NCBI GenBank assembly: GCA_947625865.1
Contig: CANQQD010000003.1
Span: 21,613 to 85,612 of the forward strand
Direction of reading: 5' to 3'
DNA: 64,000 nucleotides
DNA from: an uncultured Clostridia bacterium
GTDB lineage: Bacteria > Bacillota > Clostridia > Christensenellales > Borkfalkiaceae
Part shown: positions 38,344 through 47,682 of the stretch, one piece after another
Position numbering within the stretch: position 1 is the stretch's first letter
Layout: the number at the start of each line of letters is the position of its first letter
Position numbers and translations under genes: made by a program
The notes under the pieces: model-generated
The model's input: only the letters and a program-made list of their open reading frames with translations
What the model was told of the DNA's origin: nothing
Database searches by the model: none

Positions 38344-39758
<1,415 letters not shown>

Positions 39759-39823: not shown

Positions 39824-39898
39824 GCAGGTGTCGCCTAGCGGTATGGCGTCAGCTTCCCAAGCTGATTCCGGCGGGTCCGACTCCCGTCACCTGCTCCA
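39824..39898 (+). tRNA. tRNA-Gly (CCC), CCA encoded
   Basis: GCAGGTGTCGCCTAGCGGTATGGCGTCAGCTTCCCAAGCTGATTCCGGCGGGTCCGACTCCCGTCACCTGCTCCA. Confidence 0.97.
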
Positions 39899-39901
39899 TA
39901 G

Positions 39902-39931
39902 GAAAGCTCCCGTTTAAGCGGGAGCTTTTTG
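39902..39931 (+). terminator. Rho-independent terminator
   Basis: gaaagctcccgtttaagcgggagcttttt. Confidence 0.88.
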
Positions 39932-40037: not shown

Positions 40038-43000
40038 GTGAAAGGATTGATATTTTCTTCCGCCATATGCCTTATGTCGGGCATTGCCGCGTTTGCAAAT
40101 ACCGGCGCCAACGCTTCGGCCGGGGCGTATGCCGGTCTTGATTTTTCACGCAAAGGGTATGATTATTCCTCCGTTTCCCCGGTGGGATTTTTAACGCAAA
40201 ATTTAAATTCGGAGCTTTTTGAAGGGGAGGCGGAATATCTCGAAGCCTTTCCCGACTTCACAATAAAATACAGCGACAAAATTGCCGGCAGATATGTGAG
40301 CGCGGCTGAGGAGAACGGCGAGCTTAATGTCGCTGCCGAAGAGTATGCATATACCGCGGCGAACGGCAGCAGCGTCGTCTGGACGCCGATATCGGCTGAG
40401 GGCGTACAGTCTCAAGACGGATCGTGGAACTTCCCTCTCTCGGGGTTGGCGAATGACTATGTGAGCGTAACCTACGGCACGACGATAGATATAGACAAAT
40501 CTTATATAAACGATTTGCTCAACAGCTACTACCGCGCCGCGCAGGCGGCGGCAAGCAAAATACAGTCTGAAAACGACAGGTACGACAGCGCATATGCCGA
40601 ATATCAGGCAAACTGCTCGGAATATGAAAATTATTTGGCAGAGTGTGAGCTATATAAGCAAAGATCGGAGGAATATGCAGCATATCTCGAACGCTATGCC
40701 GAATGGAAGCGCAAGGACGATCCTTATCAGGCGTATCTTAAAGAGTACAATAAATATCTTGACGAGCTTGAGGAATACAATAGCTACAACAGCGAAGCGG
40801 CGCAGGCGCAGTACAACCGCGATATGCAGCGTTATCTTGAATATCAGGCGGCGTGCGAAAATTACGAGAAGCTCTATGACGAATATCTCAAAAGCATAGA
40901 CACTCCCGAAATGGCTCAGGTAAAAGCGCAAATAGGTATTGTGGACTACATTTATAAGGTTGCGGGCGATAACCGCACCATATACGGCGCAATAACGGGC
41001 AGCACGGTAACCGATGTGCTTTCCCGCAAGGAGGATCTCAAGCTTGCCGGCGCGGACGGCAAGGCTGTAGACCGTGCGAGCGATGCGACCAAAAATCTCC
41101 GCAACCTTTTTGCAAACTATGCGGCTTTAAAAAATGAAGAAGCGAAGTATTCTTTTTATGTAACCACATATAGCAGTTTAAGCGAAAATTTCAACGTGCT
41201 GTTGCGCGTTCTCGACTATTTTTACAGAATAAACACCATCAGAACATACATAGAAAAGAGCGGGAGAAACGAAAAATTCTGTATTCTCGTCGCCCAGCTC
41301 TATGAAATAACCGACGCCCTCAGCTCCGCACCCGTGACCAACTACGAAGCAGAGTATGGGTGGAAGGATCCTTCGGCAGCCGTTTTCGACGGATCGTACA
41401 AAATTAACGGGCGGAAGCCCGCCGATATTCTCGGCTCAGCCGTGCTTGATTTTTCCGGGAGCCCCGAGCCCCTCGGGGACGGCTATCCGTTGCTGCCATC
41501 AGAACCCGAAAAGCCCGAAAAGGTGGACCCGCCCGTATTTTACGAGCGTCCCCACATGCCCGTGCCTCCTGTGGAGGTTCCCCCGCCCGGACCGGCGCCA
41601 GAAGCCGTTTCCGAGCCGGTCAAACCCGATGAAGTTCCCGAGCCCGAGGAGCTCGAGAGATATCAACCAACGCATTGGGAATCGGTTCTTTCCGCGATGG
41701 ACGGCAAAATCGGATACAGGCAGCCTGTTTCGGAAAATTATAAACTCAGCATCACTTCCGAAGTAACAAAATATTTCAGGGGCGACCATCAAAGCGTTAC
41801 CGTCTTTTTCTATCCCGACAGGGATGCGGGCGCCGAGGAGTATTCCTACTTTGAGGAGAGCGTCGACGGCTCGTACATAGAATATCCGCCCGATTTGCCC
41901 ACGCCCGAAAAAACGCGGAGAGGGTATGTCTGCACATTCGCGGGATGGGTGTATGAGGACGGCACGCCTGTCGATTTCGGCGATCTGCGGTCGGCAGAAA
42001 GCTCTGTGAACGTATATCCTTCGTTCACCGAGGTTCCCGAGTTGTACGACGTTATTTGGGTCATAGACGGAGTAGAATATCCCCAAAAGGCGGCATATGA
42101 CTCTATCCCCCGGTTTGAAGGCGAGCCCCAAAAGCCGCCGGAAGGGATGAGGCAATACAGATTCAATGGGTGGGACAGGGATATCGAATATATGTCCGAT
42201 TCCACCGTTTATTATTACGCGCAGTTTGAGGGCAGTTGTCTTATTACATGGCGAGTTGCAGGCAGCCCCGATATGGTCGTTTCCGTATGGAAGGACGAGA
42301 TACCCGTGTATCCCGAAAACGAAGGCATACCATACAGGGAGTCGGATTCCGTCTATGCCTATGTGTTCAGCGGCTGGGATATGCTGCCTGCTCCGGCAAC
42401 GAAGGACGAAGTATATACCGCTACTTTTGCGCGGAAATATCTTGTTCCCGTAAAAGACAAATGGGCTGTGGTGACCTATGCGGACGGCTACTATTCCGCC
42501 GACTGTCTCGCCGCCGGTTCGTCGCCCGTAGATATAAGCTTGCTTTTAAATACGGCAGTTATGCACGGAGCGGGCGTACGCGTGGTCTGCGGCGTCAATT
42601 ATACCGTGACCTTCACCGCCTCGGAGGTGTATGACCTCGTTGAGTGCGGCGTCGCAAGCGTCGAACCGTTTATAACCGTCATCGGCATAAACGCATACCG
42701 CGGCAGGGTAATATTTTTTGACGACACGGGCGCAGAAATCGTATATAGCGGCGCTATGTCCATGTCTTTTTCGGGCAGCTTCGATAAGAATAAATCGCGC
42801 ATGTATCGCACGGACGGTCAAAACGGCAGTGAAGAGATCAGATTTTCATTTGACGGCAACAACGTGATCTTTACGATGCGCGGCAACGGAATATACGAGA
42901 TATATCCCGTATATACCGTAAATGTCATAAATTCCGACGCAGCAATCACTGTGACGAGGGATTTTGCCAAAAGGAACGACATTGTCACTGTGTCCTTGGG

Positions 43001-43514
43001 AGAATTGCCCGAGGGCAGGCAGCTCGAAAAAATATATGTAATAGATTCCGCCGGCAATCCGGTCGCGCTTTCCGGTGATATGTCATTTATAATGCCTGCC
43101 GGCGACGTTGCCGTGAGCGCGGTCCTCGCATGGCGCAGATATGAGGTGATTTTCCGTTCGGACGGCAAGACGATAAGCCGCAGGATATATAATTACGGCG
43201 ACGATATAACGCCCCCGGCAAACCCGGTAAAAGCGCCCGACGGAACCAATTCATATAGCTTTGTCGGGTGGGATGCGGAGCTTTCCAAGGTAACAAAAGA
43301 CGTAACATATAACGCAGTTTTCCAAAGTATGCCCCTGCCGGTTTTCGCAAGCGGCAACGGAGGACTTTCCAAACTTGCAATAACGCTGATATGCGTTGCT
43401 GCGTGCGTTTTTGCGGTAATTGTCGCCGCAATAGTGCTGACCGTTGTGCTGATCGTCCGCAGGAAAAAGCGCAAAAATGCTTTAAAACCCGAATCCACTC
43501 TCAAAACTATGTGA
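40038..43514 (+). CDS. Large surface protein: signal peptide, Tyr-rich helical region, Pro-rich region, InlB-type B-repeats, C-terminal TM anchor
   Basis: GTG start with ggggaggtgg RBS; repeated FxGWD motifs typical of InlB B-repeats; C-terminal LAITLICVAACVFAVIVAAIVLTVVLIVRRKKRK. Confidence 0.85.
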   Translation: MKGLIFSSAICLMSGIAAFANTGANASAGAYAGLDFSRKGYDYSSVSPVGFLTQNLNSELFEGEAEYLEAFPDFTIKYSDKIAGRYVSAAEENGELNVAAEEYAYTAANGSSVVWTPISAEGVQSQDGSWNFPLSGLANDYVSVTYGTTIDIDKSYINDLLNSYYRAAQAAASKIQSENDRYDSAYAEYQANCSEYENYLAECELYKQRSEEYAAYLERYAEWKRKDDPYQAYLKEYNKYLDELEEYNSYNSEAAQAQYNRDMQRYLEYQAACENYEKLYDEYLKSIDTPEMAQVKAQIGIVDYIYKVAGDNRTIYGAITGSTVTDVLSRKEDLKLAGADGKAVDRASDATKNLRNLFANYAALKNEEAKYSFYVTTYSSLSENFNVLLRVLDYFYRINTIRTYIEKSGRNEKFCILVAQLYEITDALSSAPVTNYEAEYGWKDPSAAVFDGSYKINGRKPADILGSAVLDFSGSPEPLGDGYPLLPSEPEKPEKVDPPVFYERPHMPVPPVEVPPPGPAPEAVSEPVKPDEVPEPEELERYQPTHWESVLSAMDGKIGYRQPVSENYKLSITSEVTKYFRGDHQSVTVFFYPDRDAGAEEYSYFEESVDGSYIEYPPDLPTPEKTRRGYVCTFAGWVYEDGTPVDFGDLRSAESSVNVYPSFTEVPELYDVIWVIDGVEYPQKAAYDSIPRFEGEPQKPPEGMRQYRFNGWDRDIEYMSDSTVYYYAQFEGSCLITWRVAGSPDMVVSVWKDEIPVYPENEGIPYRESDSVYAYVFSGWDMLPAPATKDEVYTATFARKYLVPVKDKWAVVTYADGYYSADCLAAGSSPVDISLLLNTAVMHGAGVRVVCGVNYTVTFTASEVYDLVECGVASVEPFITVIGINAYRGRVIFFDDTGAEIVYSGAMSMSFSGSFDKNKSRMYRTDGQNGSEEIRFSFDGNNVIFTMRGNGIYEIYPVYTVNVINSDAAITVTRDFAKRNDIVTVSLGELPEGRQLEKIYVIDSAGNPVALSGDMSFIMPAGDVAVSAVLAWRRYEVIFRSDGKTISRRIYNYGDDITPPANPVKAPDGTNSYSFVGWDAELSKVTKDVTYNAVFQSMPLPVFASGNGGLSKLAITLICVAACVFAVIVAAIVLTVVLIVRRKKRKNALKPESTLKTM

Positions 43515-43541
43515 AAAGTGTCGAAAATGTTCATTATATTA

Positions 43542-43570
43542 TTGACTTTTTAAATCAAATGATTTAAGAT
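43542..43570 (+). promoter_or_regulatory. Promoter whose spacer contains an 18-bp palindrome
   Basis: TTGACT (43542-43547), 17 nt, TAAGAT (43565-43570); TTAAATCA-AA-TGATTTAA (43550-43567). Confidence 0.55.
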
Positions 43571-43668
43571 ATATATGCTCAAATAGTATAATATTCTGAT
43601 AGTATATTAGACTTATTTGCATGGCTTCATTGCCGCAGAGAAATGAAATTCAAACAGGAGTATTTGCA

Positions 43669-46600
43669 ATGAAAAGAATTTATGACAAGTTGTCCGTAAT
43701 TTTGATCATGCTTCTCTCGCTTGTTATCGTATTCAGTACGGCTTCTTTACTGATTACGAGAGCCTCTGCCGATACGGCGGGCTCAACGCAGGAACAGGTG
43801 CAGAGCGAGGACGAGGCATGGTATGAAATTACCGTAGGAAAGGACAATAAATCGCTCACCATTTTGGTCGACGGCACGTTGGGCAGTTATGCCGATTTGT
43901 CCCAAAAGGACTTGGCAGACGTCAAAAACAAGCTGCTCAGCGCGGTCAAGAGCATTGTTATCAACAGATTGTTGGAAGCTACGGATACCACGAAAACCGT
44001 AGTCGCCGATTATGCAATGCCCATAGCCGACGGTGACGGCAATGAAGGGGTGCCCACATTGCCCGATCTTAGCGGTAGCACCCTCCAGCAATACAAGGAT
44101 TATATCTATAAGCGTCTTAAGCAGGAGGGCGAGCTCGATAAATATCTGAACGGTGACTACGACGTAATGATCAAATACGCCGTGGATCAGTATCTCACTG
44201 CCGAAAAAGACAAGATAGAGGACATGAAGGACTTTACCGATAAAGTCACTCAGCATGTTCAGGGTATTGTCGATCAGGTAATCGAGGAGAAATACGAAGA
44301 GCTTGAAAAACAGATAGAAGACGACGAAACCTTGTCTCATCAACAAAAAGAAGAGCAAAAACAAGCTCTCGCAACAGAAAAGAGTCAGGCGCAGAAGAAA
44401 AATGAAACGAAGACTTCGGAAATTGTTACCGAGGTAGTCGAAAATGGCGGAGCCACCATTACTCCCGCAGATCTTCTGAACGCTACCAATTCGATTATCG
44501 TAAGCGGTGAGTCTCTATATAAGGGCGGCAAGTTCAGCCTTGCAGCGATCAAGCAGTTGATACTCGATCTTCCCAAGCCGGCAGAGATAGCAAATCTTTC
44601 GGACGACGATATGGAGCTCAACTATGATATCGCATTGGATACGACGTTCGGATATGTCGATTTCTCATTGACCCTCGGCTTGAAGAGCGGTTATCAGCAC
44701 GTGAGAGATGCGGCTAAATTTATTGCCAATCATATTGACGTTGCCAATGATAACGGTACATATAAGATCGACGTAAAGGTTCCCGACGAATTTTCCGCAG
44801 TTCTTCTCAAAGCGGCAAATACTTCTGTTATACCCGACAATATCAAGCATGCTCTGTTCGGTATGCTCGATAAACCCGCCAACGAAATAATAGATAAGGT
44901 CGGCGACTACACCTATGAACAGGTTATGGAGTATGTAAAGGGTATTCAGTTCCACAAGCTGTTTGCCAATGTGCTCAACGCCGAATATCTGAGAAACTTC
45001 CTGGCAAAATACAATGTAAATATTCAATCGTTGACAAACGACAATATTGATAAATTTTTGAACGGCGTTCTCAATTATGCCGAAAAGCTTGCAAACAAGC
45101 AGACGGTGGAAGGTCTTGAAGAATTCCTCCACAGATACGGCATACCGGGCATTCCCGCCGGAGCTGAAAATGTAGTTCAGAAATTCCTCGATCTCCTGAA
45201 TAAAATAGATTACGAGCGCTATGACGCCACCGAAATACGTAACTTCCTCACCAGCGAGGACAGAATAAATAATTTCCTCGGCAGGATAGAGGGAAGCTAT
45301 AGGGTCGAATCGCTCTACAATTCCTTTGTCGACTATGCGGAGACCTTGTTCACTAAGCTCCCCGCAAGGCTTCAGAATGGAAAAATAATCAATCTTTACG
45401 ATAATACCAATACCCTTTCGTGGGCGGGCAATGTAAATATCGACGTAAAGCAGATAGTCAGGGATTTGGTCGAAACCGCCAACAAGAACAGCTCGCACAG
45501 TGAGCTCGAGGCTGCCATAGAGTCGGCTCTGGGCAAGATAGAGGGCAATCTCAATTACAATTGGAATATTGACCTCACTATGAGTATACCCGATATCTAC
45601 AAGGTAACCTATGCGGCAGGGAGCGAGGTTCTCGGTGAAGGACTTCTTCCCGTAGGCGCTAACGTTAACTTCTTTGCCAACACCGAAGAGGTTACGGTCA
45701 ACAACGAAAAATTCGCCATAGAGGCTTGGAAGGATTCCGACGAAAATATTTATCGTGCAGGCGCCGATAACAAATTTGAAATGCCCGCTCAAGACTTGGC
45801 TCTTCAGGCTATTACCGGCTTCAATGCAGCGATATCCGTCGACGGAACATCGGTCAGCGGATCCGATTATCAATTCAATAAGAACTATAACGGCACTGCG
45901 GTTGAATTGACCGCAAACGTAAGCGGCGGAATCGGATATGATGTCCCCGAATATAAGTGGTATAAGATACCCGCGTCCGCTAGCGAAGTGTCCGAATATA
46001 TTGAGCTGGAGGAAGGACAGGAGTATAACATTACCGATGTTGCCGATAGCGGCGAATATGTCTGCATTATAAGCGAGACGCTTTACCCCGTCGGCTCCGA
46101 TGATACCATTGTCCTCGAGGCAGAAACCGCTCATATCACTGTTACCATCAGCCCTCAGGCAGTTGATGTTTCGGGTGCAAAGTGGCAGGTAACGAATTCC
46201 CTCACCGGAGAAACCACCGACTACGATCCCGCCAATAGCGAATATAAGTACACGGGTTTCGCATATGAGGTAACGCTTACAGGCTATACTCTTCCGACCG
46301 GAATAACCGTAGAATACGAAGGAACCTCTCAGGCAATCGCCGAAGGCACATATAAAGTATTTGCAATATTTAACAGTTCGGAAAATTATGTTGTCAGCGG
46401 ACTTCAGTTGGGACAGGACGAGGCTCATGCGATTACATGGTCAATTAAAAAGGAAGATATTCCTGACAAGCCCAATCCTCCCGAAGCAAATACCTTTACC
46501 ATAACGTTTGAGGAAACGGAGATCACAATAATCGACGTGAACGGCGTTGTTCCCAAAGACGCCCAAATTGCTCCTGCCAATCATTCAAGCAGCTATACGT

Positions 46601-47682
46601 TAGATAGCTTTGCAAGTCTTATAGAGCTTGAGGATGGCAAGGAAGCGGTTATAATCAATGTCCTTGACATCAAGTTCAATATAAATGTTGCAGTGGGAGA
46701 GTATCAAGTAAAACTCTCAAATCCCGCATTTGCAAGCAAGACTATGGTTATCATCCATATACACGGAAGCGATCCTGCCGAAAAGCTTGGGATAACCCAG
46801 AGCGGCAACACCGTAAGCTTTACGGTTGACGGCTTCTCCGACTTTGCTTTGGTTGGCATACAGGATAAAGTCGTTACCGCCGAAGAGGATAACGACTCCA
46901 ACTGGTGGATCTGGCTGCTGTTGGCGATAATCATAATTCTGCTTATAGTAATTATAATCCTTATAATATATCTGCTCCGCAAGCAGAACGATTCCGACGA
47001 CGATACTTGTCCCAATGTAATAATCATTAAGACGGACGAAATCTATGAAGAAACCGAGGAGCAGGTCGAGGAGACGAAGCCCGACGAAACCCCTGCACAG
47101 GAGGAAACGGCGGCTGCGGCGGCTGAAGAGCCCGACGAAGACGAAATACCTATGCCTCTGGTGACAGACGACGGCAGAAGAATAGTATATGATAAGAGCT
47201 TCGCTGCACGTTTGTCGCAGTCCGAGAGCGCTATCAAGGATTACTACACCGAATTGAAGAACGATATATTGTCCTACAAGGGCGTTAAATCGCGCGTAAG
47301 CTGGCACTTCGATTCGTTTAACAAGGGCAGAACAAAGTGTCTCAAGTTGCAGTTACGCGGCAAGTCAATGTATATGTACATCGCATTGCCTGCGGCTGAG
47401 CTTCCCGAAAAGTATCACGTAAAGGATATGTCCGGCAAGGCGCGTTACAAGGAAGTGCCCACAATGCTCAAGATAAGAAGACCTCGCTCGCTTAAATATG
47501 CTAAGCAGCTCGTGGCTATCCTTATGGAGAGATTAGGGGTAGAGCGCGGCGAAACTCCCAACGAGAAGTACAGACCCAGATACAGGTCGACCAAGTCGCT
47601 CATCGATATGGGACTCGTTAAGGTAAAGTACACCCGCAGCACATTTGCGGCGCCCAAGAGTAAGGACGACGAAAACAAGTAA
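43669..47682 (+). CDS. Large membrane-anchored surface protein with Ig-like ectodomain, single TM, acidic linker and C-terminal cytoplasmic domain
   Basis: Signal peptide MKRIYDKLSVILIMLLSLVIVFSTASLL; TM WWIWLLLAIIIILLIVIIILIIYLLRK; C-terminal domain FAARLSQSESAIKDYYTELKNDILSYKGVKSRVSWHFDSFNKGRTKCLKLQLRGKSMYMYIAL. Confidence 0.85.
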   Translation: MKRIYDKLSVILIMLLSLVIVFSTASLLITRASADTAGSTQEQVQSEDEAWYEITVGKDNKSLTILVDGTLGSYADLSQKDLADVKNKLLSAVKSIVINRLLEATDTTKTVVADYAMPIADGDGNEGVPTLPDLSGSTLQQYKDYIYKRLKQEGELDKYLNGDYDVMIKYAVDQYLTAEKDKIEDMKDFTDKVTQHVQGIVDQVIEEKYEELEKQIEDDETLSHQQKEEQKQALATEKSQAQKKNETKTSEIVTEVVENGGATITPADLLNATNSIIVSGESLYKGGKFSLAAIKQLILDLPKPAEIANLSDDDMELNYDIALDTTFGYVDFSLTLGLKSGYQHVRDAAKFIANHIDVANDNGTYKIDVKVPDEFSAVLLKAANTSVIPDNIKHALFGMLDKPANEIIDKVGDYTYEQVMEYVKGIQFHKLFANVLNAEYLRNFLAKYNVNIQSLTNDNIDKFLNGVLNYAEKLANKQTVEGLEEFLHRYGIPGIPAGAENVVQKFLDLLNKIDYERYDATEIRNFLTSEDRINNFLGRIEGSYRVESLYNSFVDYAETLFTKLPARLQNGKIINLYDNTNTLSWAGNVNIDVKQIVRDLVETANKNSSHSELEAAIESALGKIEGNLNYNWNIDLTMSIPDIYKVTYAAGSEVLGEGLLPVGANVNFFANTEEVTVNNEKFAIEAWKDSDENIYRAGADNKFEMPAQDLALQAITGFNAAISVDGTSVSGSDYQFNKNYNGTAVELTANVSGGIGYDVPEYKWYKIPASASEVSEYIELEEGQEYNITDVADSGEYVCIISETLYPVGSDDTIVLEAETAHITVTISPQAVDVSGAKWQVTNSLTGETTDYDPANSEYKYTGFAYEVTLTGYTLPTGITVEYEGTSQAIAEGTYKVFAIFNSSENYVVSGLQLGQDEAHAITWSIKKEDIPDKPNPPEANTFTITFEETEITIIDVNGVVPKDAQIAPANHSSSYTLDSFASLIELEDGKEAVIINVLDIKFNINVAVGEYQVKLSNPAFASKTMVIIHIHGSDPAEKLGITQSGNTVSFTVDGFSDFALVGIQDKVVTAEEDNDSNWWIWLLLAIIIILLIVIIILIIYLLRKQNDSDDDTCPNVIIIKTDEIYEETEEQVEETKPDETPAQEETAAAAAEEPDEDEIPMPLVTDDGRRIVYDKSFAARLSQSESAIKDYYTELKNDILSYKGVKSRVSWHFDSFNKGRTKCLKLQLRGKSMYMYIALPAAELPEKYHVKDMSGKARYKEVPTMLKIRRPRSLKYAKQLVAILMERLGVERGETPNEKYRPRYRSTKSLIDMGLVKVKYTRSTFAAPKSKDDENK

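Follow-up and report, generated by a model that had tools for sequence, protein, structure and literature searches.

Tyr-Pro contacts pack a polyproline-II (PPII) strand against an alpha helix in the PP-fold (pancreatic polypeptide type) and in designed PPalpha miniproteins; these molecules are tens of residues long, in contrast to the long domain-bearing stalk analyzed here. The surface proteins of Gram-positive bacteria commonly contain long charged helices and Pro-rich spacers in the wall, and the period of a classic coiled coil is 3.5. The streptococcal antigen I/II (AgI/II) adhesins, among them SpaP/P1, SspA/B, AspA and Bsp, are built from an N-terminal domain, a Tyr-rich alpha helix, a head, a Pro-rich strand and C-terminal beta domains. 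In these proteins the heptad Tyr residues of the A domain interlock with the PxxP pockets of the P domain and the V domain is thereby raised (PMC7732690; PMC3707005), the N- and C-terminal parts close at the base of the stalk (PMC7732690), and the heads are beta-sandwich polymer-adhesin domains (PMC7726212).

The gene analyzed in this work is located in a window of 64,000 nucleotides (the whole stretch of DNA that was analyzed) from an uncultured Clostridia bacterium, whose draft genome comprises 71 contigs with a total of 1.76 Mb. A sequence-only reading of its product had proposed a stalk similar to that of AgI/II, formed by a Tyr-rich helical segment and a Pro-rich segment, with InlB-type B-repeats and a transmembrane (TM) anchor instead of LPXTG. 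Both segments were correctly placed by that reading (Table 1), and its description of the C-terminal part holds as well. This part ends in a hydrophobic stretch with RRKKRK, and LPXTG was found neither there nor at the C-terminal ends of the homologues. PF09479 (Flg_new) significantly matches 18 of 20 homologues in Pfam (best E 4.8e-10), the copy of the window protein lies just below the cut-off (26.1 bits against 27), and for the C-terminal part Foldseek ranks InlB B-repeats highest (E 0.016, probability 0.99). The C-terminal repeats are thus shared with the InlB-type surface proteins; in contrast to these, the stalk protein lacks leucine-rich repeats, and its helix-head-PPII part is unrelated to them.

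Table 1. Coordinates in the window of the stalk protein gene, its predicted parts and its surroundings.
Feature	Position	Strand	Basis or remark
Stalk protein gene	40038..43514	+	ORF; 1158 aa, GTG start
Signal-peptide-like N terminus	40038..40118	+	Sequence
N-terminal domain, mostly beta, residues 30-160, likely stalk base	40125..40517	+	AlphaFold strands, pLDDT ~90
Single long Tyr-rich alpha helix, residues ~163-287, predicted ascending stalk strand	40524..40898	+	AlphaFold helices at fragment residues 134-220 and 223-258; 17-residue aromatic repeat
Helical head domain, residues 288-483, without known fold	40899..41486	+	AlphaFold; no match in Pfam, PDB sequences or Foldseek
Pro-rich segment, residues 484-545, predicted PPII, predicted descending strand	41487..41672	+	Pro/Val at each third residue; pLDDT ~84 vs ~53
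Beta region toward the C terminus, containing InlB-type B-repeats; PF09479 matches once, at 43140-43313	41685..43352	+	Foldseek and Pfam
Transmembrane helix and basic cytoplasmic tail, without LPXTG	43377..43511	+	Sequence
Glutamate dehydrogenase, upstream of the stalk gene	38424-39758		
tRNA-Gly, between glutamate dehydrogenase and the stalk gene	39824-39898		
Terminator-like hairpin, between tRNA-Gly and the stalk gene	39901-39930		
Obligate neighbor: surface protein of 1353 aa that has a signal peptide, a TM helix and a cytosolic domain	43621..47682	+	Next gene downstream in 22/22 testable loci
Cytosolic C-terminal domain of the neighbor	47038..47640	+	In 70/101 relative genomes

Among 101 related genomes three full-length homologues are present, with 61, 40 and 36% identity. 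An order-wide search with the alignment, together with a scan of public genomes, identified a family of 25 distinct sequences, which are spread over four or more families within a single order, all of them free of internal stops in the reading frame used. When genome contigs were queried with the single protein no match was obtained, whereas the alignment detected seven loci. Outside the order, a class-wide search yielded one match, restricted to the helix, and in the viral contigs that were searched there were no relatives of the stalk protein. The named homologues belong to MAGs of uncultured Clostridia bacteria in which every isolate name includes 'Lapin', which suggests a rabbit gut origin.

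In the alignment of the 25 members the Tyr/Trp columns between positions 182 and 283 are repeatedly spaced by 7, 7 and 3 residues, and the autocorrelation of the aromatic residues peaks at 17 (z 7.0). The Tyr spacing noticed by the sequence-only reading is conserved in the family; a simple heptad does not describe it, as the repeating unit has 17 residues (7+7+3). In the first and longer part of the helix, the aromatic columns fit best to a helical period of 3.40 residues per turn; since that of a coiled coil is 3.5, the Tyr face winds faster around the helix. For the Pro-rich segment, the 25 homologues show Pro or Val at each third residue, i.e. on one PPII face, with the consensus PxEPxxPxxVxxPxxPxRPxxPVxPxxVxxPGxAPxxVxxPxxPxxV; the Pro columns recur at lags 9, 6 and 3, and Pro alone peaks at lag 9. 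Both patterns can be recognized in the window protein itself when it is compared with its own shuffles (aromatic lags 7 and 10, p<0.0002; Pro/Val lag 3, p=0.007), and the stalk gene ranks first among the 37 genes of the window for helical aromatic periodicity (amplitude 14.9, the next 7.6) and for Pro 3-periodicity (7.5, the next 5.0). Using the standard rises of 1.5 Å per residue for the alpha helix and 3.1 Å for PPII, the two whole segments have matching lengths (~185 Å and ~192 Å, respectively), and nine PPII residues (~27.9 Å) correspond to 17-19 alpha residues (25.5-28.5 Å).

An AlphaFold model of residues 30-600, calculated with an alignment of eight sequences, has a mean pLDDT of 85.7 and a pTM of 0.42. 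It includes one helix of 125 residues that is continuous save for a short break, and a head that is predicted with high confidence to be all-helical; the Pro-rich segment, which is neither helix nor strand, reaches a pLDDT of ~84, with 73 for its lowest block. When the N-terminal domain and the helix were removed together, the pLDDT of the Pro-rich segment decreased from ~84 to ~53 while the head remained at ~81; in the same double deletion, the pLDDT of residues 546-579 dropped from ~92 to 25-56, as would follow from a pairing of these residues with the N-terminal domain. From these losses, the simplest reading of the models is that the Pro-rich segment would be held by the helix, and the strand that follows it by the N-terminal domain at the base.

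The same features bear on a rival explanation, in which two copies of the Tyr helix would associate as a homodimeric coiled coil, with the Pro-rich segment as a mere flexible spacer that spans the cell wall. Such helices and spacers are frequent in Gram-positive bacteria and the AlphaFold model is only of the monomer; however, the aromatic period is 3.40 in a 17-residue repeat, Tyr takes the place of aliphatic residues at a/d, and no second long helix that could partner the Tyr helix is present in the monomer model of residues 30-600. In addition, a 3-residue Pro/Val register maintained in the whole family is rare in spacers, the Pro-rich segment is ordered in the model only together with the N-terminal domain and the helix, and it follows the head instead of adjoining the TM helix. 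We consequently regard this explanation as unlikely. The AgI/II-like helix/PPII stalk proposed by the sequence-only reading agrees with each of the tests available here: the faces are conserved over the 25 homologues, the lengths match, one long helix without a helical partner is predicted in the monomer, and the order of the Pro-rich segment needs the N-terminal domain and the helix.

We therefore favor, with good though not full confidence, that the protein is a membrane-anchored fibrillar surface protein in which a helix/PPII stalk carries a helical head. An alpha helix of ~18 nm would ascend from the N-terminal beta domain and bear the head, and the chain would come back as a PPII strand packed along the helix, with the Tyr/Trp rings seated in PxxP/PxxV pockets. 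The Tyr helix very probably pairs with the Pro-rich strand, presumably by direct contact, and so supports the head. At the base, the strand after the Pro-rich segment would close on the N-terminal domain; the InlB-type repeats and the TM helix would tether the assembly to the cell. The head would be displayed as a binding tip that, more tentatively, may work with the surface protein encoded downstream in gut adhesion or sensing.

This construction has the topology of AgI/II, that is, N-terminal domain, helix, head, Pro-rich strand and C-terminal domain, and shares with it the matching lengths of helix and PPII strand and the signs of N/C closure at the base; the sequence register and the order in AlphaFold are in favor of a Pro-rich strand whose PxxP pockets would pack on the helix. 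When a profile of the helix was compared with all PDB sequences, the AgI/II-type adhesin 6tzl was ranked first (E 0.086) and GbpC 5uqz second (E 0.17), both aligned at their stalk helices; the E-values are non-significant, yet we consider this ranking of sequences telling. The PDB matches to SART3 and KIBRA were discarded as weak helix matches, and the NCBIfam matches to TrlF/SMC/Rad50 (20 bits, with cut-offs of at least 350) as artefacts of helix composition. The topology and the ranking could be taken to mean that the protein is a divergent true member of the AgI/II family, which we consider very improbable given the non-significant E-values, the lack of Pfam AgI/II matches, the helical head and the lack of LPXTG. 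The Pfam models of AgI/II do not match the family even at E 10, and Strep_SA_rep (PF06696) is absent from the 25 members up to an E of 10 and, over the cut-off, from the whole genome, with none at the stalk locus. The head is predicted all-helical, as opposed to the AgI/II-type beta-sandwich (PMC7726212), and no V or polymer-adhesin beta-sandwich was detected by Pfam or Foldseek; Foldseek searches with two models revealed no fold at E<=0.001. InlB B-repeats replace the AgI/II C-domains, a TM anchor replaces LPXTG, the stalk is ~18 nm instead of ~50 nm long, and an obligate neighbor gene is present on the side of the stalk protein. The protein would work like the AgI/II stalk; without Strep_SA_rep and LPXTG, and with a helical head, its membership of the family is not supported by the defining features. 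The earlier proposal of an independent or divergent solution stands, given that neither the sequence families nor the fold search show homology to AgI/II; of the two, an independent origin is more likely.

Two elements were not contemplated by the sequence-only reading: the compact helical head that the model predicts where AgI/II has its V domain, and the obligate pairing of the gene with the next one. In all of the 22 loci with enough downstream sequence, a homologue of the 43621-47682 gene is the next gene on the same strand, while the upstream genes vary among the loci examined; in addition, among the 101 relatives the full-length neighbor is found only in the four genomes that carry the stalk gene. 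From this linkage and co-restriction we conclude that both proteins probably constitute one functional unit. The cytosolic domain of the neighbor (47038-47640), which has no significant match in Pfam, NCBIfam or PDB, is also present, as a single copy or in repeats, in many proteins of the relatives.

Mean column identity is as high in the head as in the stalk (44-47%), in contrast to 37% in the C-terminal region. Such conservation is unusual for a host-binding tip, which counts against the explanation that we favor, and fits a conserved partner, possibly the neighbor, better than a fast-changing host ligand. It is thus conceivable, with a chance somewhat short of even, that the stalk is correctly described and the protein is a structural or signaling subunit of a complex with the downstream TM protein and not an adhesin. 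This differs from the favored explanation in function only, so that the two confidences are not exclusive. Besides a head that is conserved and not hypervariable, the linkage in 22 of 22 loci, the restriction of the full-length neighbor to genomes with the stalk gene and its cytosolic domain argue for a subunit; nevertheless, linkage is no proof of binding, and adhesins also commonly have operon partners. The role of the stalk protein as an adhesin is a putative one.

The stalk gene is patchily distributed and is carried by few members of the genus of the window. In the tree, the pair of the window joins family f19 and not the other two members of its own genus (97/98 support), and the inheritance of the family is therefore more than simply vertical. 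For the two-gene module as a whole (40038-47682), the upstream genes vary between genomes and the tree departs from the genome groups; therefore, the module may move between lineages.

A profile of the helix that excluded the Pro-rich part found seven proteins outside the stalk family. Five of them have a PxxP segment immediately adjacent to the Tyr helix, and in three of these five it is the only stretch with at least four Pro in 22 residues of the whole ~1670-aa protein; in the remaining two of the seven (L108 and L109) the Pro-rich segment beside the helix is only weak. Six of the seven are mutually homologous CBM-like surface proteins that carry the pair as an insert, PPII first. In L103 (3260-8269; also in L104, L105 and L107-L109), ~20 residues of PxxP are followed, within one domain, by a Tyr helix of ~48 residues with a period of ~3.35, which from its sequence resembles a small hairpin of PPII and helix with the order of the two reversed. 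The seventh, L106 (1539-4112, minus strand), is a surface protein unrelated to the other six that has a PxxP segment directly before a Tyr helix of ~95 aa; another long region of Pro-rich repeats (EETPxEEIPxEEPEQVVEKPVEIPAAV) lies ahead of its membrane part. An additional unrelated protein from another family, L073 (1205-3142), shows a Tyr/Ala helix of ~360 aa, a head of ~110 aa that is probably beta, and a Pro-rich segment of ~155 aa; the helix (~543 Å) and the Pro-rich segment (~484 Å) match in length, in a layout that is the same save for the head and about three times longer than that of the window protein. The contig ends inside this gene, and when relatives of the L072/L073 protein were sought, the protein itself was the only match.

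As judged from their sequences, helix and PxxP pairs thus recur in at least two unrelated proteins. Whether the Tyr-Pro interlock of helix and PPII is a general element of Clostridia surface proteins, reused with interchangeable heads and independent of AgI/II, seems to us almost evenly balanced; its range would extend from ~20 residues of PPII with a helix of ~48 residues, through the ~18-nm stalk, to a stalk of ~50 nm with a probably beta head.

The building trick of AgI/II was already known; what is new here is the unfamiliar head and the obligate neighbor. As the same construction is seen here in a family whose head, anchor and host group are unrelated, such a stalk could seemingly be invented anew or transplanted. 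The sequence rules for finding more of these stalks are 17 alpha residues to 9 PPII residues, with Tyr against PxxP/V, and the family is a natural set for protein design. It also offers a starting point for understanding the way in which these uncultured gut Clostridia present domains on their surface.
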